From NCBI GenBank assembly GCA_019637095.1, contig JAHBWG010000001.1, forward strand, positions 62,001-126,000: a stretch of DNA of 64,000 nucleotides, read 5' to 3'. Each line of letters opens with the position of its first letter. Position 1 is the first letter of the stretch. Below are positions 23,142 through 38,889 of this stretch, piece after piece. A program made the translations under genes and the position numbers. Origin of the DNA: Sandaracinaceae bacterium (GTDB lineage: Bacteria > Myxococcota_A > Polyangia > Polyangiales > Sandaracinaceae). The notes below the pieces were generated by a model. The model ran no database searches. It was not told the origin of the DNA and worked only from the letters and a program-made list of their open reading frames with translations.

Positions 23142-23729
23142 TCAAGCCTCGTCGTCGGGGTCTTCGATGGGCGCGTCGTCGTCGTCGTCGGGCGGGGGCG
23201 CGGCGCGCAGCGCCGCCCTGAGCTCGGCGAGCTCCCGGCGCAGCTCGGCGACCGCGCTCGCCGTCGGGTCGGGCGCGGGCGGGTACGGCGCCGGCGGCGG
23301 CTGCGCCGGCACGGGCGGCGCGCCCCACGGGTTCATCATGCGCGAGAACGCGCTCGAGGCGGCCATCGGCATCCCGAGGAACGGGTTGCCGTAGGGCAAC
23401 ATGGCTTGCGCGTTCGCCTTGGCCTGGAGGTACATCTCGAGCGCGGTCGAGACGTAGAGGCCGAAGAACTCGGCGAGCGCGCCGTCGCCCATGCGGATGA
23501 GCTGCTCGAGCAGCGGCACCGGCAGGAGCTTCGACGCGCCCCGGCTCTCGAGGATGATGTGCGCGAGGGTCTGCTGCGTGAGGTCCTGGTTGCTCTTGGC
23601 GTCCACCACCTGGACGCGCGAGCCGGCGCGGATCCGCGCCGCCAGCTCCTCCAGCGTGATGTAGCGGCTCTCGTCGGTGTCGTAGAGCCGACGGTTGCCG
23701 TACTTCTTCACGACCATCGCGCGCGCCAC
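23142..23729 (-). CDS. phaR: PHA synthesis regulator PhaR
   Basis: 195 residues. Residues 6-65 are the PHB-accumulation regulatory DNA-binding domain (VVKKYGNRRLYDTDESRYIT, then DLTQQTLAHIILE). The middle (LIRMGDGALAEFFGLYVSTA) is the associated helical domain, and the tail is Pro-rich then acidic. PhaR represses phasin and PHA genes and is released by binding PHA granules. The GTG at 23729 follows the phaB stop directly; an internal ATG at 23717 is equally possible. Last gene of the phasin-phaC-phaB-phaR operon. Confidence 0.92.
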   Translation of the reverse strand: MARAMVVKKYGNRRLYDTDESRYITLEELAARIRAGSRVQVVDAKSNQDLTQQTLAHIILESRGASKLLPVPLLEQLIRMGDGALAEFFGLYVSTALEMYLQAKANAQAMLPYGNPFLGMPMAASSAFSRMMNPWGAPPVPAQPPPAPYPPAPDPTASAVAELRRELAELRAALRAAPPPDDDDDAPIEDPDDEA

Positions 23730-23730
23730 G

Positions 23731-24480
23731 CTACGTCATCACGAGGCCGCCGTCGACGTCGACGCAGCGCGCGTTGAAGTAGTCGCACTCGATGACGAAG
23801 CGGACCGCCTGCCAGATGTCCTCGGGCAGCCCGATGCGCCCGACCGGGATCGCGGCGACGAGCGCGTCGCGCGCCTTCTGGTGCATCCCCTGCGTCATCG
23901 GCGTCTCGATCATCCCCGGCGCGACCGCGCCGACGCGGATGCCGTAGCGCGACAGCTCGCGCGCCCAGCTCACCGTGTTCGCCGCGAGCGCGGCCTTGGC
24001 CGCGACGTAGGCGGTCTGCCCGCGGTTGCCGTGCCGGCTCACGCTCGAGATGTTCACGATCACGCCCGGCCGCGCCTCGGCCTCGATCATCGCCGCCGCG
24101 ACCTCGCGGACCATGAGCGTGGCGCCGCGCTGGTTCACCGCGGTCACCGCGTCGAGGTGCTCGGAGGGGAAGCGCACCACGCGGCCCGTCTCCCGATCCT
24201 GCTTCACGAGCAGCCCGTCGCGGATGATGCCTGCGTTGTTGATCAGCGTGTTGAGACCGCCCATCGCGCCCATCGCCCAGCCGACGAAGTCGGCCACGCT
24301 CGCCTCGTCCGCCACGTCGAGCCGCCGGGTCAGGACGCCCTCGGGCAGCTTCGCGAGGCCGGCCTCGTCGACGTCGCCCGCGGCCACGATCGCGCCGGCC
24401 TCGTGGAGCCGGGTCGCGAAGTGCGCGCCCATCCCGTTGGCCGCGCCGGTCACGATCACCTTCGAGTCACCGAGCTGCAT
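23731..24480 (-). CDS. phaB: Acetoacetyl-CoA reductase-type SDR
   Basis: 249 residues, a classical short-chain dehydrogenase: cofactor loop TGAANGMG (11-18), NNAG, catalytic Ser in NISSVSRHG and YVAAK, and C-terminal VDGGLVM. The setting between phaC and phaR points to reduction of acetoacetyl-CoA to (R)-3-hydroxybutyryl-CoA, the PHB monomer; a FabG-like 3-oxoacyl reductase is the alternative. Its start overlaps the end of phaC by 14 bases, so it is probably translationally coupled. Confidence 0.85.
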   Translation of the reverse strand: MQLGDSKVIVTGAANGMGAHFATRLHEAGAIVAAGDVDEAGLAKLPEGVLTRRLDVADEASVADFVGWAMGAMGGLNTLINNAGIIRDGLLVKQDRETGRVVRFPSEHLDAVTAVNQRGATLMVREVAAAMIEAEARPGVIVNISSVSRHGNRGQTAYVAAKAALAANTVSWARELSRYGIRVGAVAPGMIETPMTQGMHQKARDALVAAIPVGRIGLPEDIWQAVRFVIECDYFNARCVDVDGGLVMT

Positions 24481-25486
24481 CGTTCACTTCACTCCTCGCA
24501 TGCTCGTGGATCCACGAGACGATCTTCGGGTAGAGGGCCTTCGGGGCGCGGCTGCCGACGACGGCGCCGACGTGGCCGCCGGGGACCTCGAGCACGTCCG
24601 CGCGCTCGGAGCCGACGAGCGCGTTGAGCGCCGTCGCCGCCTCGGGCGGGCAGATGGTGTCGCGGCTCGCGACGATGGTGAGGACCGGACAACGAACGTT
24701 GCGGAGGTCCACCGCGCGGCCGCGCACGCGGAGCTCGCCCTTGGCGAGCCGGTTCTTCTGGTAGAGCTCTTCGATGTACGTGACGTAGCACGCCCCGGGG
24801 AAGGGGATGTTGTCGCCCGCCCACGCCTCGAGCGCATCGAACGCGGCGCGGAACTCGGGGTCGAGCCCGCGGTCCGCGAGCGCGACCCACTTCGACAGCT
24901 GCCCGGTCGGGCCGAGCGCCACGAAGCCGGACTGCATCATCTCCGCGGGGAGGTTCCCGGCCGAGGTCATCGCGCGCGGATCGAAGTGGTCTTCGTCGAC
25001 GAGCGCGCGCAGGAGGCCGCCCTGTTCGAAGTCGATCGGGCCGGCGAGGTTGATCAGCGCGGCGAGCTCGTCGGGGTGCAAGGCGGCGTACACGCTCGAG
25101 AGCGTCGCGCCCATGCAGTAGCCCAGCACGACGACGCGCTCCGCGCCCGTCTCGCGCTTCACCCGGCGCACCATGCGGGCGAGCCGCTCGACGGCGTCGT
25201 CCCACGTGCGGTAGCGGTCCTCGTCCTCGGGGACGCCCCAGTCGAGGAGCCAGGTGTCGTGCCCGCCCTCGACGAGCGCCGCGGCGAGGCTCACGCCCTC
25301 GCGCAGGTCCATCACGTACCAGCGGTTGATCATCGACGGCACGCACAGGACGGGCGGGCGCCCGGGCACGGCCCCCGCCGAGCGGAACCGCAAGAGGCGC
25401 GCGGTGCCGTCGGCGAGGATCGTGTCGCGAGGCGTGGGCGCGACGCGGGCCGAGGCACCCTCGGTCGGAACGGCGCGTCCGATCAC
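24467..25486 (-). CDS. phaC: PHA synthase, class III PhaC-like
   Basis: 339 residues from a GTG two bases after the phasin stop. It is an alpha/beta-hydrolase whose nucleophile box carries Cys, LGYCMGATL (C124), with Asp in ASRDTICPP (D276) and His in PGGHVGAVV (H305). These spacings match the class III synthase of Allochromatium (C149, D302, H331) with an N-terminus about 25 residues shorter. It polymerises hydroxyacyl-CoA to polyester on granules. Class III enzymes need PhaE; the adjacent 102-residue phasin-like protein or the PhaE-like protein at 33822 could fill that role. Confidence 0.9.
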   Translation of the reverse strand: MIGRAVPTEGASARVAPTPRDTILADGTARLLRFRSAGAVPGRPPVLCVPSMINRWYVMDLREGVSLAAALVEGGHDTWLLDWGVPEDEDRYRTWDDAVERLARMVRRVKRETGAERVVVLGYCMGATLSSVYAALHPDELAALINLAGPIDFEQGGLLRALVDEDHFDPRAMTSAGNLPAEMMQSGFVALGPTGQLSKWVALADRGLDPEFRAAFDALEAWAGDNIPFPGACYVTYIEELYQKNRLAKGELRVRGRAVDLRNVRCPVLTIVASRDTICPPEAATALNALVGSERADVLEVPGGHVGAVVGSRAPKALYPKIVSWIHEHARSEVNDAAR

Positions 25487-25488
25487 GC

Positions 25489-25797
25489 TCAGCCCTCCGC
25501 CTTGGGCTGCATCGCGCTCATGCTCTTCTTCGCGACCTCGACGCCGAGCTCGCGCCACTGCGTCGAGAGCTGCGCCTGGTAGTCGACGCTGCTCTTGACG
25601 AGGCGGGTGACGTCGTCGATCGCGCGCATCGTGCGGGTGTGGCGCTCCTCGTCGAGCTTGGCGAGCTCGGAGACGAGCTGCTCGAAGCGCTCGGCCTGCG
25701 CCTCCATCATCGCGCGCCACGCGTCGGCGCCGGGGACGGCGGGGAAGAGGTTGGCGGGGCTCTCGTGCTGCGCCTGCGAAGTCTTGCGGGTGGCCAT
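25489..25797 (-). CDS. Phasin-like granule protein
   Basis: 102 residues, all helical, with the phasin-type stretch ARMMEAQAERFEQLV-like heptads (visible as WRAMMEAQAERFEQLVSEL) and a C-terminal STQWRELGVEVAKKS. First gene of the PHA operon, with GGAG seven bases before the ATG. Phasins coat PHA granules and are the classic target of PhaR; a sigma-70-type promoter with an adjoining PhaR-type palindrome lies upstream. It may alternatively serve as a short PhaE-type activator of the neighbouring synthase. Confidence 0.75.
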   Translation of the reverse strand: MATRKTSQAQHESPANLFPAVPGADAWRAMMEAQAERFEQLVSELAKLDEERHTRTMRAIDDVTRLVKSSVDYQAQLSTQWRELGVEVAKKSMSAMQPKAEG

Positions 25798-25853: not shown

Positions 25854-25882
25854 AAGCTAAGCGCCCGCCCCCGCCCGGTCAA
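25854..25882 (-). promoter_or_regulatory. Sigma-70-type promoter of the phasin-PHA operon
   Basis: On the minus strand: TTGACC at 25882-25877, exactly 17 bases, then TAGCTT at 25859-25854. The -35 box is strong and the -10 box weak. The palindrome at 25889-25908 is six bases upstream of the -35. Confidence 0.5.
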
Positions 25883-25888
25883 GGACAG

Positions 25889-25908
25889 AATGCTGCGTCC
25901 GCAGCATT
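25889..25908. promoter_or_regulatory. PhaR-type operator, perfect palindrome
   Basis: AATGCTGC, four bases, GCAGCATT: a perfect inverted repeat whose core CTGC-N4-GCAG matches the TGC-rich sequence described for PhaR of Paracoccus (cited from memory). It lies next to the -35 box of the phasin promoter. Confidence 0.6.
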
Positions 25909-25966
25909 CGCGCACCATTTCCCTCGAATCTCAGGCCTTCTTGGCCATAGACGGTGTCGCGCGATG

Positions 25967-25977
25967 CTGCTTCGCAA
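25967..25977. promoter_or_regulatory. Second PhaR-type site
   Basis: CTGC, TTC, GCAA: same pattern as the perfect site with a 3-base spacer and one base off symmetry. It lies in the divergent region between the phasin gene and the gene at 26043, so it could act on either. Confidence 0.4.
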
Positions 25978-26042
25978 CACGCCGGCGCCCGCGTGGGCGT
26001 ACGACGGAGCCACCCGCGACCGCCCGCGGTACCCTGCCCCTC

Positions 26043-26624
26043 ATGACCTCCGACGCGGAGCGCGCGCTGATCGAGATCGATCGCCTCGGCATCCTCTTGT
26101 TGCAGGATCCCCGGTTGCCGAGCCTCGCCGCGCTGGTCGCCGGCGAAACGGTGAAGGGCTCGTGGTGGGGGCACCCTGCCGGGAACCGGATCTTCGACGC
26201 CGCGGGCGCGCTCGACGCGCACGCCGACGTGTGCACGTTCAAGCTCGTCGAGGGCAAGGTGTGCTTCGTCCACCGCCGGCTCTGGCCCGCGCTGGTGGCG
26301 ATCGGGAGCGCGCGCGAGGGCTGGCAGCTCGAGGAGCTCGACGCGGACGCGCGCGCGCTGCTCGAACGCGTCGAGCGCGAGAGCGTCGTGCGCGCGAGCG
26401 GCAAGGCCGCGAAGGCGCTCGAGACACGCCTCCTCGCCGCGAGCGCGCAGGTGCACACGGCGAGCGGCAAGCACGCGACCGAGCTCTCGAGTTGGGCACG
26501 CTTCGCCCAGGATCGGGCGACTGGGACGACGCCGCCGCTCGCCGAGGCCAAGCGTCAGGTCGAGCGGGCTGCCGCCGGCTTGGCCACCGGAAGCGGCGCG
26601 CGCGCGCGCCTGCCCTGGCGGTGA
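26043..26624 (+). CDS. Conserved hypothetical protein (SWWGHP motif)
   Basis: ATG at 26043; 193 residues, soluble. The conserved core is IEIDRLGILLLQDPRLPSL, KGSWWGHPAGNRIFDA and FKLVEGKVCFVHRRLWPALV, which I recognise as a recurring family of unknown function in Proteobacteria and Actinobacteria. The C-terminal half is helical and Ala/Lys-rich. Its frame runs open further upstream, but that region lies in the regulatory gap. It is divergent from the PHA operon and separated from the downstream operon by a 323-base regulatory region. Confidence 0.7.
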   Translation: MTSDAERALIEIDRLGILLLQDPRLPSLAALVAGETVKGSWWGHPAGNRIFDAAGALDAHADVCTFKLVEGKVCFVHRRLWPALVAIGSAREGWQLEELDADARALLERVERESVVRASGKAAKALETRLLAASAQVHTASGKHATELSSWARFAQDRATGTTPPLAEAKRQVERAAAGLATGSGARARLPWR

Positions 26625-26814
26625 CGTCGCAAGCGCTCGTCATGCCCGGACCGAACGAATCGTCGGCGCGGAGCCGGCGATCATGCCGGAGCCGAGCGCG
26701 AGCGCCGAGGCCCGCATCGCGGTGAGCATCGCGAGCCGCGGCCTCGCGACCCGGATCGCGACGGGCGGGCGCGGACGTCCTCTCGCGTCGGGAGGCGACG
26801 GCGTCGCGCTTATA

Positions 26815-26825
26815 TTGCAACGCAA
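26815..26825. promoter_or_regulatory. PhaR-type palindrome upstream of the nine-gene operon
   Basis: TTGC, AAC, GCAA: perfect half-site symmetry with a 3-base spacer, in a locally AT-rich patch (TATATTGCAACG) that stands out against the GC-rich background. It lies within the 323-base gene-free stretch 26625-26947. Confidence 0.45.
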
Positions 26826-26890
26826 CAGGCCGAGAACCCCTCTATTCGGCAGCATTTCGGCGAACTTTCCCTCCGATCCCCCCGTCTATG

Positions 26891-26901
26891 CTGCTTTGCA
26901 C
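26891..26901. promoter_or_regulatory. PhaR-type site next to the nine-gene operon promoter
   Basis: CTGC, TTT, GCAC, preceded by TATG. It lies ten bases upstream of a -35 box, much as the perfect palindrome does at the phasin promoter. The flank CACCATTTCC occurs after both this site and the phasin-side palindrome (25912-25921), a shared context that argues against chance. Confidence 0.5.
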
Positions 26902-26910
26902 CATTTCCGC

Positions 26911-26939
26911 TTGACGCCACCTCGGCGCGGGCGTATTCA
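26911..26939 (+). promoter_or_regulatory. Sigma-70-type promoter of the nine-gene operon
   Basis: TTGACG, 17 bases, TATTCA. The -10 end is only eight bases from the ATG at 26948 and no Shine-Dalgarno sequence is visible between, so the first gene may be read from a leaderless transcript. Confidence 0.45.
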
Positions 26940-26947
26940 AACGCTCG

Positions 26948-27859
26948 ATGGGGCGCACGGGAACGCTGATGTTGCTGGGCAGCATGCTCGCTGCGTGCAC
27001 GCCGGGCCCCATCGTCGGCCGTTGCACCGTCGGCGCGGACTGCGCCTCCGGCGTCTGCCTCGGGGACGGCACGTGTGCACCGCAGCAGGAGGCCGACGGC
27101 GGCGCGCCGAGCCCCGACGCGTTCGTGCCGCCCGGGACGGACGCGGGCCGCCCGGACGCGGGCCCGCCCGCGCACTGCGTCCCGAACGAGGACGGCGTCG
27201 TCTCGCGCGCCGAGGCGCCGTTCGGCCCGGGCCTCGCCGCGCGCTACGTCGTGACGGGCGGCGTGCCGGTCGACACGGCGGGCGCGGGCGGCCGCTGGGA
27301 CTACGGCGGCGCGCTCCCGGGCGATCACCCCTTCGACGTGCGCACCGAGGCGCCGGACGGACGCTGGTTCGCCGACCGCTTCCCCGGCGCCGATTACGTC
27401 GCGCCGCTCGCGGAGGATCGCGATCTGCTCGGCGTGTTCCGCGTCACCAACGCGTCGCTCGAGCTGCTCGGCGTCGTCTCGCCGCTCGAGGGCGTCGGCC
27501 GCACGGAGCTCCGCTTCGAGCCCGCCGTGCGCATGCTGAGCTTCCCCCTCGCGCGCGGCGATCGCTGGACGACCGAGACGCGCGTGACCGGCCTCGCCTC
27601 GGGCCTCGCGGCGAACTTCACCGAGACCTACGAGGTCGAGGTCGACGCGCGCGGTGACGTCGTCACGCCCTACGCCCCCTTCGACGCGCTGCGCGTGCGC
27701 GTCACCCTCACGCGGACGGTCGGCTTCACGCGGACCGTCACGCGCCAGTTCCTCTTCGTGGCCGAGTGCTTCGGCACCGTCGCCACGGTGGTCTCCGAAG
27801 AGAACGAGACCGAGATCGAGTTCCGCCGCGCCGCCGAGATCCGTCGGCTCGGCTTCTGA
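26948..27859 (+). CDS. Operon lipoprotein paralog 1
   Basis: 303 residues with a lipoprotein signal ending in GSMLAAC, a CTVGADCASGVCLGDGTC cysteine knot and an Asp/Pro/Gly spacer. The ~210-residue domain after CVPNEDG is shared with the genes at 29429 and 32972: WDYGG near the start, FPGADY, LLGVVS, then RTEL, FPLARGDRW, EVEVDARG, and a C-terminal CFGTVATV followed by AEIRRL. It probably sits on the outer membrane and binds a ligand. No named family is recognised. First gene of the proposed PhaR-controlled operon. Confidence 0.75.
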   Translation: MGRTGTLMLLGSMLAACTPGPIVGRCTVGADCASGVCLGDGTCAPQQEADGGAPSPDAFVPPGTDAGRPDAGPPAHCVPNEDGVVSRAEAPFGPGLAARYVVTGGVPVDTAGAGGRWDYGGALPGDHPFDVRTEAPDGRWFADRFPGADYVAPLAEDRDLLGVFRVTNASLELLGVVSPLEGVGRTELRFEPAVRMLSFPLARGDRWTTETRVTGLASGLAANFTETYEVEVDARGDVVTPYAPFDALRVRVTLTRTVGFTRTVTRQFLFVAECFGTVATVVSEENETEIEFRRAAEIRRLGF

Positions 27860-27912
27860 GCCCTTCTAGTTCGAGCCCCACGACCCCCGACGAACCGAGA
27901 GAGGTGCGAGCC

Positions 27913-29409
27913 ATGGATCGCGACCTGACGGCCTGGTGCGCCTTCGGCGCCTACGTAGTCTTGACCACCGCGCTCGCGCTGCGCGGCATGAAGAAGACCA
28001 AGGACTTCAGCGGCTTCGCCCTCGGCAACGGGGACCTCGGCCCGCTCGTGGTCGGGATCACGCTCGCCGCCTCGATCGCGTCGACGGCGACGTTCGTGAT
28101 CAACCCCGGCTTCGTCTACACGCACGGCGTCTCGGCGCTCTTGCACCTCGGGCTCGCCGCGAGCCTCGGCGTGATCGTCGCGCTCGTCGTGTTCTCCAAG
28201 GGCTTCCGGCGGCTCGGCAAGGAGCACGCCGCGTTGACGCTCCCGCACTGGATCGGCGCGCGCTTCGGCCACTCGGGGATGCGCACGTACTTCGCGCTCC
28301 TGAACCTCGTGCTCGCCGTCTCGTTCGTCGTGCTGATCGTGAAGGGCTCGGCGCTCGTGATGCAGCACACGCTCGGCCTCGGATACGTGACGAGCGTGCT
28401 CGTGATCGTCGCGTTCGTGTTCGGCTACATCTTGCTCGGCGGCACGTACGCGCACGTCTACACCAACGCGTTCCAGGGCGCGCTGATGGTGCTCGTCGCG
28501 ATCGCGATCTTCGGCTCGGGCCTCTACCTCTTCGCGGACGGCCTCGGGCCCTTCCTCGATCGACTCGCGGCGCAGGACGCGAACCTCGTCGCGCCGGTGA
28601 ACGCGGCGAGCCCGCTCTTCGGCTCGTGGTGGGACGTCGTCCTGTGCGGCTTCGTCGTCGGCGCGGGGCTCACCTGCCAGCCGCACATCCTGACCAAGAG
28701 CCTCTACCTGAAGAGCGATCGCGACCTGAACCGCTTCCTCGTGGTCAGCGCGGTGATCGGCGTCGTGTTCGCGCTCGTGCTCGTCGCGGGGCTCTACGCG
28801 CGCATCCGCATGCCGGGCATCGAGAGCCAGGACGCGGTGATGCCGCTCTACCTCACGCAGGCGTTCGGGCCGATCGCCGGTGTGCTGATCAGCGTCGCAC
28901 TCCTCGCGGCCGGCATGAGCACGCTCGACGGGCTCCTCGTCGGCGCCTCGACGATCGCCGCGAACGACCTCGTGCTCGGCGACCTCGGCGACCGCGTGCT
29001 CGGGGCGCGCGCGCCCGAGGATCGGCAGCGCATCGCGCTGTCGGCGAGCCGCTGGATCCTCGTGCTGATGGGCGTGCTCTCGGCGGGGCTCGCGCTCGAC
29101 CCGCCGGAGCTCGTCGGGATCTTCGCGCAGGTCGGCGTCTACGGCTTGGTCGCGGCGAGCCTCGCGCCCGTCGCGCTCGGCGTCCTGGTGAAGGACCTCG
29201 ACCCCCGCTTCGTGTTCGCCGCGGCGCTCGCGGGCCCGCTCGTCCACTTCACGCACTACCTCGTGTCGGTCTACGGTCTGGGGGTGTTCGTGAACCCCGC
29301 GTCCACCGCGACGGAGGGCGTGCTCGCGTCGTTCGCCGTGCTCGGCGCGCTCGAGGCGTGGCGGCGCGCGCGCCGGCCGAGCGCGCCGATGCTCGGGGTC
29401 ACGCGCTGA
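27913..29409 (+). CDS. Sodium:solute symporter (SSS family)
   Basis: 498 residues from an ATG with a GAGAGG ribosome site; about 13 membrane spans. SSS signatures are the N-terminal KKTKDFSGFALGNGDLGPLV, GITLAASIASTATFV, the WIGARFG loop, and GMSTLDGLLVGASTIAANDL near residue 340. The family couples Na+ entry to uptake of carboxylates, amino acids or sugars; the Ser/Thr sites for Na+ look present. In this operon a short hydroxy-acid or fatty acid is a reasonable but unproven substrate. A longer upstream frame overlaps the previous lipoprotein and lacks membrane character. Confidence 0.9.
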   Translation: MDRDLTAWCAFGAYVVLTTALALRGMKKTKDFSGFALGNGDLGPLVVGITLAASIASTATFVINPGFVYTHGVSALLHLGLAASLGVIVALVVFSKGFRRLGKEHAALTLPHWIGARFGHSGMRTYFALLNLVLAVSFVVLIVKGSALVMQHTLGLGYVTSVLVIVAFVFGYILLGGTYAHVYTNAFQGALMVLVAIAIFGSGLYLFADGLGPFLDRLAAQDANLVAPVNAASPLFGSWWDVVLCGFVVGAGLTCQPHILTKSLYLKSDRDLNRFLVVSAVIGVVFALVLVAGLYARIRMPGIESQDAVMPLYLTQAFGPIAGVLISVALLAAGMSTLDGLLVGASTIAANDLVLGDLGDRVLGARAPEDRQRIALSASRWILVLMGVLSAGLALDPPELVGIFAQVGVYGLVAASLAPVALGVLVKDLDPRFVFAAALAGPLVHFTHYLVSVYGLGVFVNPASTATEGVLASFAVLGALEAWRRARRPSAPMLGVTR

Positions 29410-29428
29410 GCGACACGGGAGCCGCGCC

Positions 29429-30415
29429 ATGACGACCGCACGCACGCACGACGCTCGACGCTCGACGACGCTCGGCGCGCTCTTCGCCCTCGCGCTCTTC
29501 GGCTGCGCGGCGGGCGACGAGTGCCGCTTCGGGGCGGAGTGTCCGTCGGGCGTGTGCCTGCCCGAGGGGCGCTGCGTCGCGCCGGGCGAGGACGCGGGCG
29601 CGCCGCCCGAGGACGCGGCGACGCCGCTCCTCGACGCCGCGGCGCTCGACGCGAGCGCGGACGACGCGGCCACCCCCGACGCCAGCCTGGACGACGCCGC
29701 CGCGCCCGACGCGGGGCCGCCCGCCTGCCACGACGGCGACGCGCGCCTCACGGCCGACGAGCTGCCGCTGCCGCTCGGCGTACCGCAGCGCCAGCGCGTC
29801 GCCGCGGACGTCGCGCTCGACACGCGCGGGACCGAGCGCGCGGACGGAACGCGCCTCTGGGACTTCGAGGGCCCGTACGCGGGCGACACCGACCGCGTGG
29901 TGATGCGCACATCGACGAGCGGCGCCTGGTACGCGGGGAGCTTCCCCGACGCGACCTACGCGCTCCCGCTCGGCGCGGGCGACGACCTCATCGGCGTCTT
30001 CCGCGCCGACCGTGACGCGCTCGTCTTGCTCGGCGTCGTCTCGCCCGAGGGCGGGCTCGCGCGCACCGAGCTCACCTACGCGCCGCCCGCGCCCGTCTGG
30101 CGCTTCCCCCTCGAGGTCGGCGCGAGCTGGGACGTGACCTCCACGGTGAGCGGCGTGACCTCCGGCGTCGCGAGCGTCTACACCGAGCGCTGGCGCGTCG
30201 CGGCCGACGCGCGCGGGCAGCTCGCGACCCCCGCGGGCGTGCGCGACGTGTGGCGCGTCGACACGCGCATCACCCGCACCGTCGGCGCGCTCGTCACCGA
30301 GCTGCGCCGCCACTCCTACGTCGAGCCGTGCGCGGGCACCGTCGCGCAGGTCTTCGCGACCGGCGTCGCGAGCGAGCCCACGCGCGTCGACGAGCTCTGG
30401 CGGATCGCGCCATGA
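29429..30415 (+). CDS. Operon lipoprotein paralog 2
   Basis: 328 residues; lipoprotein signal ending in ALALFGC, then CRFGAECPSGVCLPEGRC and a long Ala/Asp spacer. The C-terminal domain matches paralogs 1 and 3: LWDFEGPYAGD, FPDATYALPLG, LLGVVSPEGG then RTELTY, FPLEVGASWDV, RITRTVGALV, and CAGTVAQV. The expected CFGTVA is CAGTVA here. ATGA overlap with the hydrolase gene. Ligand unknown. Confidence 0.75.
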   Translation: MTTARTHDARRSTTLGALFALALFGCAAGDECRFGAECPSGVCLPEGRCVAPGEDAGAPPEDAATPLLDAAALDASADDAATPDASLDDAAAPDAGPPACHDGDARLTADELPLPLGVPQRQRVAADVALDTRGTERADGTRLWDFEGPYAGDTDRVVMRTSTSGAWYAGSFPDATYALPLGAGDDLIGVFRADRDALVLLGVVSPEGGLARTELTYAPPAPVWRFPLEVGASWDVTSTVSGVTSGVASVYTERWRVAADARGQLATPAGVRDVWRVDTRITRTVGALVTELRRHSYVEPCAGTVAQVFATGVASEPTRVDELWRIAP

Positions 30416-31398
30416 CGCGCCTGTCCACGTCGTTTGCGATGCTCCTCGCGAGCGGGTGTCTGTCGTTCCACGCCGGGCCGATGGACGGCGAGCCGGCGGA
30501 CGCGACCTACGCGTCCGTCGAGGGCGCGCGCGTGCGCTTCGTCGACGAGGGCGAGGGCCCCGCCGTCGTTCTGATCCACGGCTTCGCCAGCTCGCTCGAG
30601 ACGTGGGAGGGCGTGCGCCCGGCGCTGCGCGAGCGCCACCGCGTGGTCGCGCTCGACCTCAAGGGGTTCGGCTGGACCGACCGGCCGCGCGGCGACTACT
30701 CGCCCGCCGCGCAGGCGCGCCTCGTGCTCGCGCTGATGGACGCGCGGGGCATCGAGCGCGCGGCGCTCGTCGCGCACTCGTGGGGGAGCTCCGTGGCGCT
30801 CCAGCTCGCGCTCGAGGCGCCCGAGCGCGTCACCCGCCTCGCGCTCTACGACGCGTACGTCTACCCCGAGCAGCGCAACACGTTCTTCCAGTGGGCCGAC
30901 GCCGACGGGATGGGGGAGATCCTCTTCGGCCTCTTCTACGACCAGCGCCCCGAGGAGCGCATCGCGCTCGCGTTCTTCGACCCCGACTCGATCCCGCAGG
31001 CGCTGATCGACGCGATCGAGCGCGCCGCCGCGCGACCGGGCACCGGCGCCGCCGCGCTCGCCGCCGCGCGCGGCATGCAGGCGTTCGAGTCGAGCCGCTA
31101 CGGCGACGTCCGCGCGCCGATCCTGCTCCTCTGGGGCCGCGAGGACCGCGTCACGCCGCTGTCGTACGGCGAGCGCCTCCAGAACGAGCTCGCCGACGCG
31201 CGCCTGCGCGTCTACCCGCGCTGCGGCCACTTCCCGATGATCGAGGCGGCGCGCCCGAGCTTGCGCGACCTCTCGGAGTTCCTCGCGGCCGAGGTCGAGC
31301 AAGACACCTCGCCGACGCTGCGCGCCGCCGAGCCGCCCCGCACGCTCGAGCCGGCGCCGGCCCAGGACGGCGCGCCCGACGAGGAGGCGCTCCCGTGA
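30412..31398 (+). CDS. Lipoprotein alpha/beta-hydrolase
   Basis: 328 residues. The lipobox LLASGC anchors a complete alpha/beta-hydrolase: oxyanion loop LIHGFASSLETW, nucleophile Ser in LVAHSWGSSVAL, Asp in WGREDRVTP and His in YPRCGHFPMIEA. The lid region between contains FFQWADADGMGEIL. An acidic Pro-rich tail extends past the fold. This family includes esterases and haloalkane- or epoxide-type hydrolases; Ser as nucleophile favours an esterase. Being exported and lipid-anchored, it could release acids that the symporter takes in. Overlaps both neighbours by four bases. Confidence 0.85.
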   Translation: MTRLSTSFAMLLASGCLSFHAGPMDGEPADATYASVEGARVRFVDEGEGPAVVLIHGFASSLETWEGVRPALRERHRVVALDLKGFGWTDRPRGDYSPAAQARLVLALMDARGIERAALVAHSWGSSVALQLALEAPERVTRLALYDAYVYPEQRNTFFQWADADGMGEILFGLFYDQRPEERIALAFFDPDSIPQALIDAIERAAARPGTGAAALAAARGMQAFESSRYGDVRAPILLLWGREDRVTPLSYGERLQNELADARLRVYPRCGHFPMIEAARPSLRDLSEFLAAEVEQDTSPTLRAAEPPRTLEPAPAQDGAPDEEALP

Positions 31399-32975
31399 GC
31401 GCGCGCGCCCGGCTGGTGCTCGCCGCGCTCGCGTGCTCGATCGCGCCGTCGATCGCGCCCTCGACCGCCGCGGCGCAGGCGGTCGTCCGGCGCGTGCCGC
31501 CGCCGGGCGAGCCGAACCTCGTCGACTACCGCGTCTTCTTCCGCAGCCGCGGCGAGGTCTTCTACAACCTGGACCTCGACCGCGGCCCGACACCGAGCGG
31601 CGAACCGCTCTTCCCGGTCCCGCAGGCCGACCCGCGCTCGCAGCTCCTCACGCACGGCGACATGCGCCTGCGCACCGACCTCGCGTTCAACGTGCCCGAG
31701 TCCACCGTCAGCGTGCACGTGCGCGTCGACGTGCTCGACAACCTCAGCCTCGGCAGCCTCCCGGTCGGCCCGCCCGCGGACACGCGCCAGCAGCGCAGCC
31801 CCGGCAGCGCGTTCGTGATCAAGCGCGCGTGGGCGCAGGTGCTCACGCCGATCGGCCTCATCGCCGCCGGCCGCATCGGCTCGCACTGGGGCCTGGGCAT
31901 GCTCTCGAACGGCGGCGACTGTCCGAGCTGCGACACCGACGACGCGGCGGACCGCGTGTTCTTCGCGACCGCGTTCGCCGATCACCTCTGGACCCTCGCG
32001 TTCGACTTCACCTCCGTCGGCCCCAACGTCCCGCGCTCGGACGGCGTGCGCTTCCTCGACCTCGACCCGCTCGACGACACCTCGACGCTGACGTTCGCGG
32101 TGATGAACGTGCGCGACGGGACCGCCCTGCGCCGCCGCACGCGCGCCGAGCGCACCACGCTCGAGTACGGCGCGTTCGTCTCGTACCGCTGGCAGCTCTT
32201 CGACTGGTCGCCGAGCTATCTGCCCGGCCCCGAGCGCTACGAGCTGTCGCGCACGCAGCTCGTCGGCCGCGGCTACCAGGCCGTCGCGGGGGACGCGTTC
32301 GTGCGCCTCACCGGCCCGTGGGGCTACGTCGGCGCCGAGGGCGCGATCATCGGCGGCCGCTTCGAAGAGGCCTCCCTCGTGCCCGGCGTGTTCCTGCGCG
32401 ACCCGGTCGAGTCGCTCCAGTGGGGGCTCGCCGTCGAGTCCACCTTCGTGCCCGTCCCGAACGTGCTCGAGCTCGGCCTCGACCTCGGCGCCGCCTCGGG
32501 CGACCCGGCGCCCGGCTTCGGCGCGTTCCCCGGCACGCGCGGCCCGGGCCGCCCGGGCGACCGCGACGGCGCGCAGCTCGGGCCGCCGTTCGACATGCGC
32601 GTCGACAACTTTCGTTTCCATCCCAACTACCGCGTCGACCGCATCCTCTTCCGCGAGATCATCGGCACCGTCACCGACGTCTTCTACCTGCGCCCGCACG
32701 CGCGCCTCACGCTCGTGGAGCACCCGACCGGGCGCCTGCGGCTCGGGCTCGCGGGCGTCTTCACCACCGCGCTCGAGGCGTCGAGCACGCCCGGCGGCGA
32801 CGCCCTGCTCGGCTTCGAGCTCGACCCGACGCTCAGCTACGAGAACGACGAGGGCTGGTCCTTCGTCGCCGAGTACGCGGTGCTCGTGCCGTTCGCCGGC
32901 CTGAACAACCCCGCGCTCGGGCTCGACGCGCAGCCCGCGCAGCTCCTGCGCCTCCAGCTCTGGGTGACGCTGTGA
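31395..32975 (+). CDS. Outer-membrane beta-barrel (TIGR04551-like)
   Basis: GTG start in a GTGA overlap; 526 residues with a Sec signal (IAPSIAPSTAAAQA). Alternating hydrophobic strands run throughout and the chain ends in LRLQLWVTL, typical of an outer-membrane barrel C-terminus. GRIGSHWGLGMLSNGGDC followed by DTDDAADRVFF resembles the myxobacterial family TIGR04551; this match is from memory. The likely role is passage of a substrate or lipid across the outer membrane for the operon. Overlaps the next gene by GTGA. Confidence 0.75.
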   Translation: MSARARLVLAALACSIAPSIAPSTAAAQAVVRRVPPPGEPNLVDYRVFFRSRGEVFYNLDLDRGPTPSGEPLFPVPQADPRSQLLTHGDMRLRTDLAFNVPESTVSVHVRVDVLDNLSLGSLPVGPPADTRQQRSPGSAFVIKRAWAQVLTPIGLIAAGRIGSHWGLGMLSNGGDCPSCDTDDAADRVFFATAFADHLWTLAFDFTSVGPNVPRSDGVRFLDLDPLDDTSTLTFAVMNVRDGTALRRRTRAERTTLEYGAFVSYRWQLFDWSPSYLPGPERYELSRTQLVGRGYQAVAGDAFVRLTGPWGYVGAEGAIIGGRFEEASLVPGVFLRDPVESLQWGLAVESTFVPVPNVLELGLDLGAASGDPAPGFGAFPGTRGPGRPGDRDGAQLGPPFDMRVDNFRFHPNYRVDRILFREIIGTVTDVFYLRPHARLTLVEHPTGRLRLGLAGVFTTALEASSTPGGDALLGFELDPTLSYENDEGWSFVAEYAVLVPFAGLNNPALGLDAQPAQLLRLQLWVTL

Positions 32976-33817
32976 GCACACGCAACGTCCTCTGCTCGCT
33001 GCTCTGCTCGCTGCTCTGCGCGCCGATCCTCGGCGCGTGCGGCGAGAACCGCACGCTCCCCGGGCCGCGCCCGTACGCGCCCGGCGCCGAGCCGCGCTTC
33101 GAGTGCCTGCCGAACCTCGACGGGGTGCTCGAGGCGGGCGAGCTGCCCATCGCGGTCGGCGAGACCGTCGGCTACCTCGTCGGGCAGAACCGCCCCGTCG
33201 GGCTCGAGGGCACCGTCGACGACGAGGGCCGTCGCCGCTGGGACCTCGCGACCGACTACGCCGACGACCGCATCGTCCGCGTCGGCCCGACGCGCCTGTC
33301 CGACGCGTGGTTCGGGCCCGACTTCCCCGGCGCCGACTACGCCGCGCCGGTCGACGTCGACGGCCGCGTGCTCGGCGCCTACCACCTCGACGAGCGCGGG
33401 CTCTGGCTCCACGGCGTCGCCTCGTCCGAGCCGAGCCCCCCCGAGGGCCGCACGCTGTTGCGCTACGACGCGCCGGTCCTCTTGTTCGCGCTCCCGATCG
33501 AGCCCGGCCGCCGCTGGACCTCGACCGGGACGATCAGCGCCGGCACCGCGCTCGGCCTCGCGTACCGCGGCGAGGACACCTACGAGGTCGAGGTCGTCGG
33601 CGCCGGGCGCCTGGACCTGCCCGACTGGAGCTTCGGCCAGGCGTTCCGTCTCGACCAGCAGGTCACGGTGACGCCCGCGATCGGCGAGCCCGCGCGCCGC
33701 CGCATCACGAGCTGGTTGTTCGAGTGCTTCGGCGAGGTCGCCCGCGCAGAGAGCGCGCTCGGCGTCACCGCCCCGTTCGAGGAAGCCGCCGAGCTGCGGC
33801 GCATCACGCTGAGGTGA
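32972..33817 (+). CDS. Operon lipoprotein paralog 3
   Basis: 281 residues; signal with a repeated CSLLCSLLC stretch and a lipobox APILGAC. It lacks the Cys knot and Asp/Ala spacer of the other two paralogs and goes almost directly to the shared domain: CLPNLDGVLEAGELPIAVG, RRWDLA, FPGADYAAPV, FALPIEPGRRW, YEVEVVGAG, then CFGEVARAESA and AAELRRITL. The CSLLC codons are a short perfect DNA repeat (CTCGCTGCTCTG). Four bases before the PhaE-like gene. Confidence 0.75.
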   Translation: MSTRNVLCSLLCSLLCAPILGACGENRTLPGPRPYAPGAEPRFECLPNLDGVLEAGELPIAVGETVGYLVGQNRPVGLEGTVDDEGRRRWDLATDYADDRIVRVGPTRLSDAWFGPDFPGADYAAPVDVDGRVLGAYHLDERGLWLHGVASSEPSPPEGRTLLRYDAPVLLFALPIEPGRRWTSTGTISAGTALGLAYRGEDTYEVEVVGAGRLDLPDWSFGQAFRLDQQVTVTPAIGEPARRRITSWLFECFGEVARAESALGVTAPFEEAAELRRITLR

Positions 33818-33821
33818 AGAC

Positions 33822-34139
33822 ATGACCGAGATGTGGGATCAGTGGAAGAAGGGCTTCTACGCGTGGGAGAACGCGACGGCCGCGTACATGGAGGACGTGC
33901 TCAAGAACCCCGCCGTGCTCGGCCCGAGCGGGCACCTCTTGAGCGGGGCGATGAAGGCGCGCGCGCAGGGCGCCGAGGCGCTCGCCAAGTTCTGGGGCGG
34001 CTGGGGCCTGCCGACCAAGCGCGACCAGGAGCGGTCGCTCCACGCGCTCAACCAGATCCAGAGCAAGCTGCTCGACCTCGAGGAGCGCCTCGCCGACCTC
34101 GAGGAGACGCGCAACGGGAACGAGCGCGACGGAGCCTGA
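33822..34139 (+). CDS. Miniature PhaE-like synthase subunit
   Basis: 105 residues, helical, with a strong GAGGTGA ribosome site. [20 protein letters not shown] resembles the phasin/PhaE N-terminal helix, and [19 protein letters not shown] followed by [13 protein letters not shown] is the C-terminal LPTR-type coiled coil that PhaE uses to contact PhaC. Usual PhaE proteins are near 360 residues; this one keeps only the two ends. It lies in one transcription unit with a PhaC-like gene (via the ligase gene), as phaE does in class III systems. A phasin is the alternative reading. Confidence 0.7.
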
Positions 34140-34140
34140 C

Positions 34141-35825
<1,685 letters not shown>

Positions 35826-35829
<4 letters not shown>

Positions 35830-36833
35830 ACCGCTGGCTACGCCTCGCCGAGCGCCTGCGCCGCGGCCGCCCTCCCGTCGGCACCACCCCGGCGGACGTC
35901 GTCCACCGCGAGAACAAGTGGCGCCTCTTGCGCTACCGCTCCGAGCGCGTCCGCTACCGCACGCCCATCCTCCTCGTCCCCTCGCTCATCAACCGCCACT
36001 ACGTGCTCGATCTGTTGCCCGGCAAGAGCTTCGCCGAGCACCTCGTCGCGCAGGGCTTCGACGTCTTCTGCATCGACTGGGGCACCCCCGCCGACGAGGA
36101 CCGCTACCTCACGTTCGACGACGTCTGCGGCCGCACGCTCGCGCGCGCCGTCCGCGCCGCCTCGCGCCACGGCGCGCGCGGCACCTGCCACGTCCTGGGC
36201 TACTGCATGGGCGGTACGCTCGCCGCGATCCACGCCGCCCGCTTCCCCGACCGCCTCGCCTCGCTCCTCGTCCTCGCCGCTCCGGTCGAGTTCGACGACG
36301 AGGGCTTGCTCAGCGCGTGGACCCGCTCGGACGGCTTCGACGTCGACGCGCTCGTCGACGGCCTCGGCAACGTCCCATGGCCGCTCCTGCAAGCGAGCTT
36401 CCACATGCTCCGCCCCACCCTCAACCTCGCCAAGGCCGTCACCCTCGCCGACCGCGCGTGGGACGACCGCTTCCTCGACGGCTTCTTCGCCCTCGAGACG
36501 TGGGGTAACGACAACGTCGACTTCCCTGGAGAGTGCTACCGCACCTGGATCCGCGACGTCTACCGAGCCAACGCCCTCGTCCGCGGCGAGCTCTCGCTCA
36601 TGGGCCGCCGCGTCCGCCTCTCCGACGTCACCTGCCCGCTCCTCGCCGTCACCTTCGAGCACGACAACATCGTCCCCCACCGCTCCGCGAGCGCGCTGGT
36701 CGAGCGCGCCGGCTCCGCCGACAAGCAGCACCTGCACCTGCCCGGCGGCCACGTCGGCGCCGTCGTCTCCAGCGGCGCCAAGGCCCACCTCTGGCCCACC
36801 CTCACCGCGTGGTGGGCCGCCCGCGATGTGTGA
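35826..36833 (+). CDS. Second PHA synthase, class III PhaC-like
   Basis: 335 residues. Nucleophile box [13 protein letters not shown] (C127), Asp in FEHDNIVPH (D280) and His in [12 protein letters not shown] (H309), with the same spacings as the PhaC at 24467-25486 but clearly diverged. Basic N-terminus ([15 protein letters not shown]). The pair of synthases probably differ in substrate or timing. Being last in an operon with an acyl-CoA synthetase, this one is likely fed from exogenous acids rather than acetyl-CoA. An acyltransferase acting on other acceptors is possible. Confidence 0.85.
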
Positions 36834-37165: not shown

Positions 37166-38782
37166 TTACGCGGCCATGGGGAGCTGGGCACGCTGCATGG
37201 CGAGCTGTGTGTGCTCGAGGTTGAGGGTCGCCGCATGACGACGAGCGTCAAAGGTGTTGTTGCGGATCCCGCGGTAGCGTGCGCGGGTGCCTTGGCGGCG
37301 CGCGTGGTGAGAGATTCGGTGCTCGATGTGGACGCGCTCACGAAGCCGTTCGCGCCCGTCGGAGGTCGCGATCTGCGTACGCAGCTGCTTCTGCAGGGGC
37401 TCGTCCTGGGCGATGCTGACGGAGCGTCCCTTGCCTCGAGCAGCGTCCGTGCACTGCGCGCGGAGAGGGCAGGAGTCGCAGCGCTCGGCTGGGAAGCGTG
37501 TGGTGGTTCCGAAAGCGATCTTCTCGGTGTGGCCTGCGGGGCAGGTGATCGTGCGATGTCCGAGGTGGAGCTTGAAGTCGCGCTTGGTGAACAGCTCGCC
37601 GGCGGGGGCTCGCCAGGGCCTGGAGAGGATGGGGACGTCGTCGGCATGGAGCTGGCGAACGAGGTCGCTGGCGACGTAGCCGCGGTCGATGTGCAGCTCG
37701 CCCACGCCGTTGCGTTCCGAGTACCTGGAGAGGTCCTGGACGATCTCCGGCAGAGCCTCGGCCTCGGGGCGGTTGGCCGGGGTGATGGCGCACGCGACGA
37801 TCAAGCCGGTGTCGAGGTCGGCGCCGAGATGGCTCTTGTAGCCTTTGATGGTCTTGCTCTTGCTCTTGCGTCCGTGGCGCATGTCGGGGTCCGCGACGGA
37901 GATCTGCCGCTCGGGCGCGACGGCGGGGCGAACTCGCGGCCCACCACCGTCAGGGTCGGGCTCCAGGTCCTGCTCGCGCAGCCGCGCGATGGTCGCAAGC
38001 ATCTGCGACAGCGGCGGCCCTTCGGCGGCTGCCGAGAGGTGCTCGGCGACCCACGCTTCAAGCCGGTCGATCTGCTTGACCAGCACCTTGATGGCGTCCG
38101 CCTTCTGCTCCGGGTCGTTCCAGTCGATGTCGAGGCCGCGCTTGACGCTGCTGGCTGCGAGCGCCGGGGCGCCGATCGCGTGGGCGAGCTCCTCGGGCGC
38201 GCGCTCAGCGAGCGCGGCGGCAACACGCAGGACCTTGCGAGCCGCATGACCGAGCAAGTTGAAGGTGTCCTCGACGCGCCCTGCACCTTCGAGCGGACGC
38301 GAGTCCACCGCCAGGCGCACCGTCTTGGGAAGCTTGCGGTGGTCGAAGCCCCCGACTTCCTTGGCGAACTCGACGGTCCGCTCGAGAAGCCGCCGATCCA
38401 TGTCATGGGCGATGAGCCGCTCGCGGAAGCGCTGCAGCGTACCCTGCGAGAACGGCGGCCCCGTTTCCTCATCGTCGAGCACCCCCAGGACCATTCGCCA
38501 GCGCGCGTCGGCGACCGCGTTCTCCACCGCCTCGGCGTCCGAGCACCCGGTGTAGGCCTGCAGGAGAACGGCCACCGCGAGCATCGCGGGCGGCGCGGGA
38601 ACCTTGCCCTCGCCCGTGTCCCGGTACATCTCAGCGAGCTCGTCCTGAAAGGCGTCGTCGAACAGCTCCAGCCGATGCTCGCGCAGCAAGCGGAAGAGCT
38701 TCTTCGTCCGGACCATCCGCTTCAGCAGGAACGCCTCCCGCTTACTGATCTCACTCCCCGGCCTCCAGCGCGGTACACCCAT
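37166..38782 (-). CDS. IS1182-family transposase
   Basis: 538 residues from MGVPRWRPGSEISKREAF (38782); the upstream extension of the frame is read-through to the IS edge. Family signatures: N-terminal HRLELFDDAFQDELAEMY, the first catalytic region RLAVDSRPLEGAGRVEDT, then KSKTIKGYKSHLGADLDTG, HIDRGYVASDLV, a cysteine cluster CDSCPLRAQC, and the C-terminal ARYRGIRNNTFDARRHAATLN. No stop or frame break is seen, so it should be functional. Codon use is less biased to G/C at third positions than in the neighbours, as expected of an incomer. Confidence 0.92.
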   Translation of the reverse strand: MGVPRWRPGSEISKREAFLLKRMVRTKKLFRLLREHRLELFDDAFQDELAEMYRDTGEGKVPAPPAMLAVAVLLQAYTGCSDAEAVENAVADARWRMVLGVLDDEETGPPFSQGTLQRFRERLIAHDMDRRLLERTVEFAKEVGGFDHRKLPKTVRLAVDSRPLEGAGRVEDTFNLLGHAARKVLRVAAALAERAPEELAHAIGAPALAASSVKRGLDIDWNDPEQKADAIKVLVKQIDRLEAWVAEHLSAAAEGPPLSQMLATIARLREQDLEPDPDGGGPRVRPAVAPERQISVADPDMRHGRKSKSKTIKGYKSHLGADLDTGLIVACAITPANRPEAEALPEIVQDLSRYSERNGVGELHIDRGYVASDLVRQLHADDVPILSRPWRAPAGELFTKRDFKLHLGHRTITCPAGHTEKIAFGTTTRFPAERCDSCPLRAQCTDAARGKGRSVSIAQDEPLQKQLRTQIATSDGRERLRERVHIEHRISHHARRQGTRARYRGIRNNTFDARRHAATLNLEHTQLAMQRAQLPMAA

Positions 38783-38889
38783 GCTCGCCTCCTCGGACCG
38801 CGTTCCAGACGGCCCGCGAAGAGCGAGCCGATCACGATCGACCCCCTCCTGTCGATCCCCGCGCGCCAAGTGATCGAGATGACACGGCT

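Follow-up and report, generated by a model that had tools for sequence, protein, structure and literature searches.

Candidate PhaR operators upstream of two divergent operons suggest a shared PHA regulon in a myxobacterial genome and its relatives

The identification of related palindromic sites directly upstream of two divergent promoters strongly supports the notion that the PHA operon and the neighboring nine-gene operon of genome G000 would form one PhaR regulon. In the likely reading, these sites are operators of the PhaR-like protein encoded at 23142-23729, which would co-repress both operons until PHA granules titrate PhaR away; one PHA-sensing regulator very probably controls both operons together. 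Regulation by PhaR has been elucidated in proteobacteria. The literature searched yielded no account of a PhaR regulon in Myxococcota, and a survey from 2024 reporting PHA genes in most activated-sludge Myxococcota bins did not cover regulation (PMC11821767). The stretch of DNA analyzed here, called the window, comprises 64 kb (G000:C1:62001-126000) of a 9.25-Mb genome in 197 contigs with 75% G+C.

Two transcription units diverge within the window. The minus-strand unit has the order phasin-like gene, phaC1, PhaB-like reductase and phaR-like regulator, and the phaR-like gene thus lies in the phasin operon, as stated already in a preliminary description of this DNA. The plus-strand unit consists of nine genes (26948-36833) and ends with phaE, an acyl-CoA synthetase gene and phaC2. 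The minus-strand genes and an ORF located between the two promoters are:

25489-25797, minus strand: phasin-like small protein; G002, G005 and G008 have ORFs of about 52% identity in the equivalent position
24467-25486, minus strand: PhaC1, class III-like PHA synthase, start approximate (TIGR01836 261 bits, under the cut-off of 365.3)
23731-24480, minus strand: PhaB-like short-chain reductase (PF13561 1.4e-41)
23142-23729, minus strand: phaR-like regulator, last gene of the phasin operon (PF07879 86.2 bits; TIGR01848 92.4 bits)
26043-26624, plus strand: AlkZ-related ORF between both promoters (PF24741 20.3 bits, under the cut-off)

The small protein at 25489-25797 had no match in the profile libraries and a PF09361 search of G000 found no phasin; its label, phasin-like, is based on size, position and conservation. 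The AlkZ-related ORF has no counterpart in the relatives' loci, G000 being alone in carrying it among the genomes compared. The corresponding slot is filled by a transporter-like gene in G015 and G022, and the divergent region seems to accept gene insertions while the operators stay on both sides. At the other end of the nine-gene operon, a transposase-like ORF (37166-38869) lies directly 3' of phaC2.

The sites and promoter elements are given in the order of their coordinates, from the phasin side to the nine-gene operon:

25854-25859, minus strand: phasin promoter -10, TAGCTT, after a 17-base spacer; at the same spacing TTAGCTTC in G005 and G008, and CTAGCTTC in G002
25877-25882, minus strand: phasin promoter -35, TTGACC, read directly; relatives keep TTGAC 9-12 bases past the operator
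25888-25909, unstranded: phasin-promoter candidate operator GAATGCTGCG-TC-CGCAGCATTC with a TGC-N4-GCA core; top N4 match (18.9)
25912-25922, plus strand: solo half-site GCACCATTTCC, described before as CACCATTTCC; resembles the right arm of the relatives' operator, GCAACATTTTC
25964-25980, unstranded: auxiliary candidate operator ATGCTGC-TTC-GCAACAC (CTGCTTCGCAA at 25967); third-best N3 site in the window (17.5)
26812-26828, unstranded: auxiliary candidate operator ATATTGC-AAC-GCAACAG (TTGCAACGCAA at 26815); second-best N3 site in the window (22.1)
26849-26857, unstranded: possible half-site GCAGCATTTC (GCAGCATTT on the plus strand), read from the sequence and newly described
26888-26908, unstranded: operon-promoter candidate operator ATGCTGC-TTT-GCACCATTTCC (CTGCTTTGCAC at 26891); best site in the 64-kb window (24.3)
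26911-26916, plus strand: operon promoter -35, TTGACG, read directly; kept in G005 and G008
26934-26939, plus strand: operon promoter -10, TATTCA, after a 17-base spacer, with the ATG at 26948; TA..T is enriched there over 97 cassettes
26969-26985, unstranded: fifth site ATGTTGC-TGG-GCAGCAT, newly described; fourth N3 site in the window (14.3)

Direct reading recovered the four sites of the preliminary description at their places (25888-25909, 25967, 26815 and 26891) and both of its promoters, each with TTGAC, a 17-base spacer and a TA-type -10. The phasin palindrome has two perfect 10-base arms around a 2-base centre, six bases separate its inner 20-mer from the -35 TTGACC, and G005 carries TTTGCTGCGGCGCAACATTTTCTCGTTGACA at the equivalent position. 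On the other side, ten bases lie between CTGCTTTGCAC and the -35 TTGACG of the operon, and the orthologous operon promoters match closely (TATGCTGCTTTGCACCATTTCCGCTTGACG in G000, TATGCTGCTCTGCACAAGATTCGGCTTGACG in G005). The auxiliary candidate operators are situated about 73 bp from the phasin candidate operator and 76 bp upstream of the operon candidate operator, respectively. The short sequence CACCATTTCC was indeed found at 25913 and 26899, its only occurrences in the window; as an independent element it had to be abandoned, because it equals the operator's own arm or a half-site (GCAACATTTTC in relatives). A generic promoter scan called neither promoter, because both -10 boxes are degenerate; nevertheless, we regard both promoters as real because the cassette is conserved in relatives. 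Eight bases separate the operon -10 from the ATG (26934-26950), hence the mRNA of the nine-gene operon may be leaderless. The fifth site lies within the lipoprotein signal-peptide codons of the first operon ORF and may be coincidental. In the same lipoprotein gene, positions 27072-27088 match the R. eutropha PhaR consensus with one mismatch and have a matrix score of 10.3.

The training set, 3,437 bp located between the PHA operons of 16 relatives or adjoining them, contains 30 TGC-N3-GCA sites, compared with 2.0 in shuffled sequence (at most 9 in any of 200 shuffles), and no TGC-N4-GCA. The N3/4 spacing assumed earlier thus gives way to N3 as the rule; judged by these counts, N3 is the motif of the lineage and the phasin palindrome of G000 an N4 variant. 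A symmetric matrix of 23 positions was built from the relatives' sites, with G000 left out. Applied to the 64-kb window, its top N3 positions are 26892 (24.3), 26816 (22.1), 25968 (17.5) and 26973 (14.3), followed by a next score of 12.3, while its top N4 position, 25894 (18.9), is the phasin palindrome. As a set, the relatives' sites show the TGC-N3-GCA core, an RNY centre and T/A at position 7. In the three N3 sites of G000, TGC/GCA and the T/A of position 7 are preserved, but RNY is preserved at 26816 only; the centres TTT, TTC and TGG found in G000 differ from the RNY centre typical of the lineage, and the phasin site has the N4 spacing.

Alignment of the outer-membrane barrel provided 80 named loci, almost all of them with myxobacterial or delta-proteobacterial labels and including Minicystis rosea as well as Archangium, Labilithrix and Sandaracinus bins; five loci overlapping the training genomes were left out. 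Among the phaR-divergent loci outside the training set, 55 of 55 have at least one intergenic site scoring >13 (median intergenic length 353 bp), and in 18 of these 55 the highest-scoring site anywhere in the locus falls in the phaR-operon intergenic region, with 1.7 expected by length. Where TTGAC occurs within 60 bases, it is 9-12 bases from the operator in 84 of 110 cases; the spacings in G000 are 10 (operon) and 11 (phasin). Of the 97 operator-TTGAC cassettes with a distance of 8-13 bases, 43 are directed at operon gene 1, 24 at the phasin gene and 18 at phaC1; over these cassettes, TA...T is enriched where a -10 is expected relative to TTGAC. Hence, the same operator-promoter cassette precedes both operons and is kept in relatives, and the earlier proposal of one PhaR regulon gains from the relatives-only matrix, from the sites at all 55 loci and from the fixed -35 spacing before both operons. 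The loci share ancestry, so the 55 of 55 and the cassette counts are not independent events; distant genera agree. Operator distances also showed a periodicity of 10.5 bp (Rayleigh p about 8e-4), which we left unused because it depends too heavily on the common descent of the loci. Many relatives have a second site just past the -10, with a peak 38-44 bases after TTGAC; the second sites of G000 are instead 73-76 bp upstream of the primary candidate operators. Further sites occur in some relatives; G037 and G027, for example, have site clusters around their PHA loci. Extra pairs of PhaR-type sites were seen at other locus promoters in relatives (L108:4874-4894, L165:16571-16681, L177:5613-5633), such as those close to PhaB and the symporter, which suggests that moved genes keep their own operator.

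The arrangement resembles PhaR systems described before. In R. eutropha (Cupriavidus necator), the motif YTKNTGCRNYGCANMAR is near-invariant at positions 1-4 and 7 from the centre (PMC12849132), and these positions are conserved likewise in the myxobacterial matrix. As at R. eutropha phaP1, where BS1 adjoins the -35, there are several sites per promoter, one of them directly upstream of the sigma-70 -35 of the phasin gene (PMC12849132); the degenerate palindrome of R. eutropha, with a TGC-RNY-GCA core and T/A seven bases from the centre, has its likeness in the relatives' sites as a set. The candidate operator adjoins the phasin -35 in G000 as well as in relatives, and the relatives' second site just past the -10 is the arrangement of R. 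eutropha phaP1. In R. eutropha, sites at the phasin gene also occur around the start site (PMC12849132), whereas in G000 the same operator also precedes a divergent operon whose products include a second synthase as well as envelope proteins, and the core on the phasin side is N4. Similarities were also seen to AniA/PhaR of Sinorhizobium meliloti, with the core YGCRNYGCR, A+T-rich arms and PHB genes as targets, and there two motif copies flank the -35 of phaP1 and phaP2 (PMC12542648). However, S. meliloti has dozens of targets across the genome (PMC12542648), whereas the pattern searches of G000 gave no convincing operator outside the locus. The Bradyrhizobium diazoefficiens box NGC-N3-GC[GA] likewise has N3-spaced GC pairs, and at its phaP1 two boxes are both needed for full binding (PMC10888616); unlike in G000, this box is shorter and looser and serves a global regulon (PMC10888616).

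We propose repression, relief by granules and feedback because they are established PhaR biology and because the sites adjoin the -35. The PhaR-like protein would recognize TKNTGC-N3-GCANMA directly upstream of the -35 at two back-to-back promoters, and the auxiliary sites about 73-76 bp further upstream might aid occupancy. When granules are absent, PhaR dimers would block both promoters, and the block at the phasin promoter would also lower phaR transcription and thereby act as negative feedback. Once PHA granules form, PhaR would be titrated away and both operons induced together. Binding, repression, granule titration and the help of the auxiliary sites are inferred from PhaR biology. It is less likely, though it deserves to be taken seriously, that PhaR binds both promoters and activates one or both of them, with the operator next to the -35 contacting RNA polymerase. 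In both G000 operons the primary candidate operator is placed upstream of the promoter rather than across it, the G000 phasin promoter lacks a second operator around the start site, and R. eutropha PhaR is reported to activate phaP3 (PMC12849132); however, the position is equal to that of BS1 at the repressed R. eutropha phaP1 promoter, and the second site 38-44 bases after TTGAC in many relatives is a repressor arrangement.

The product of 23142-23729 is claimed here to work like PhaR. Its PHB_acc_N DNA-binding domain passes PF07879 (86.2 bits, cut-off 25); it is called PhaR-like because the single weak match to PF05233 (21.3 bits, gathering score 27) and the match to the NCBIfam equivalog TIGR01848 (92.4 bits, cut-off 109.45) stay below their cut-offs. 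A sequence search for a solved PhaR structure found none. The dyad could alternatively be read by another regulator, such as a second PHB_acc_N protein (G000:C131:69455-69709; L077:7468-7716) or an unlinked factor. The second protein shares the DNA-binding domain (43% identity; PF07879 7e-27), but the DNA-binding gene accompanying the sites in the compared loci is phaR (55 of 55), no sites were found near the second gene in G000 (L077) and none convincing in the relatives' loci, and the motif published for PhaR is the same, making this explanation improbable. The second protein is kept across the order even where phaR was not found.

The preliminary description had named frequent occurrence of the motif at random places in the genome as speaking against its proposal; this applies to the loose motif and not to the extended dyad. 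The loose pattern YTGC-N3/4-GCAR is frequent, as DNA of this kind leads one to expect, with about 15 places in the 64-kb window, and is weak as sole evidence. ATGCTGC-N3/4-GCA has 37 oriented matches per 9.25 Mb, six of them within the 1.1 kb of the locus (the palindrome counted twice). The extended dyad TKNTGC-N3-GCANMA is rare, occurring at 12 places genome-wide with three in these 1.1 kb; the Poisson P of about 2e-10 is a guide only, the pattern having been chosen after seeing the relatives' sites. The extended dyads at the locus are not due to chance. An origin of the palindromes by chance or coding constraint in a genome of 75% G+C is hardly credible, for although the loose motif is common and the matches at 26973 and 27072 fall in a coding region, three of the 12 extended dyads sit at the locus, the sites are conserved at orthologous promoters of other genera, and the relatives show the excess of 30 over 2.0. 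The two copies of GCACCATTTCC in the window are mildly unusual (with at most one mismatch, two copies were reached in 4 of 100 shuffles).

The weight matrix was run over the 64-kb window and the remainder of G000 was searched by patterns, which weaker operators may escape; these searches gave no convincing operator outside the locus, none near the thiolase genes and the third PhaC-like gene of G000, and no match to the strict pattern TKNTGCRNYGCANMA anywhere in G000. The strongest other matches of the motif in G000 fall inside genes: C66:399 was rejected as lying inside the end of a transposase-like ORF, C110:59443 and C110:61542 as lying inside kinase-type and antiporter-type ORFs. No proof was drawn from the published R. 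eutropha consensus by itself, because with 29 matches in the window at up to three mismatches it fails to single out the locus sites.

Among the targets of the putative regulon, the nine-gene operon is of particular interest:

26948-27859, plus strand: gene 1, lipoprotein, YmcC/LolA-like half-barrel (structure model, fold search)
27913-29409, plus strand: gene 2, sodium:solute symporter (PF00474 8e-34)
29429-30415, plus strand: gene 3, paralogous lipoprotein (sequence comparison)
30412-31398, plus strand: gene 4, alpha/beta hydrolase with lipoprotein-type signal (PF00561 5e-35)
31395-32975, plus strand: gene 5, outer-membrane beta-barrel (structure model, fold search)
32972-33817, plus strand: gene 6, paralogous lipoprotein (sequence comparison)
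33822-34139, plus strand: gene 7, PhaE-like (TIGR01834 19.2 bits, weak); conserved between gene 6 and the synthetase
34141-35829, plus strand: gene 8, acyl-CoA synthetase (PF00501 1.5e-62)
35826-36833, plus strand: gene 9, PhaC2, class III-like PHA synthase (TIGR01836 280 bits, under the cut-off of 365.3)

PhaC2 and PhaC1 both score below the class III cut-off of TIGR01836 and are named class III-like only. Genes 1, 3 and 6 are paralogues and had no Pfam match; the lipoprotein model (pLDDT 85) has its best fold matches in YmcC-type proteins (Z 10.6, 171 residues, rmsd 3.9). The barrel, whose closest named match is found in a Sandaracinaceae bin (L106, 77%), was modelled with pLDDT 66 and pTM 0.69, and a substrate assignment from its fold was dropped, because AlgE, MOMP and Occ/OprD channels match alike (Z 22-26). 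Hydrolase, barrel and lipoproteins occur in 57-58 of 58 phaR-bearing loci, the barrel by construction of the search; PhaE and synthetase are present in 53 and PhaC2 in 47, counts partly limited by contig ends, and the symporter in 10.

If PhaR controls both promoters as proposed, its regulation would tie PHA metabolism to the envelope apparatus. Through the conserved cassette, an uncharacterized envelope operon is assigned to PHA metabolism by regulation, beyond neighborhood, and the relatives-only matrix offers a ready means to find PhaR targets in Myxococcota. More tentatively, and with somewhat greater doubt than confidence on our side, PhaR might across Myxococcota couple granule synthesis to an envelope apparatus, predicted to comprise an Occ/AlgE-like outer-membrane channel together with YmcC/LolA-like lipoproteins and a hydrolase that is itself a lipoprotein, all encoded in the same operon as PhaE, acyl-CoA synthetase and PhaC2, so that the storage system would be tied to the cell surface. 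If true, such surface-tied storage could, for example, serve the uptake or release of hydroxyalkanoate oligomers, or of other acids to be polymerized.
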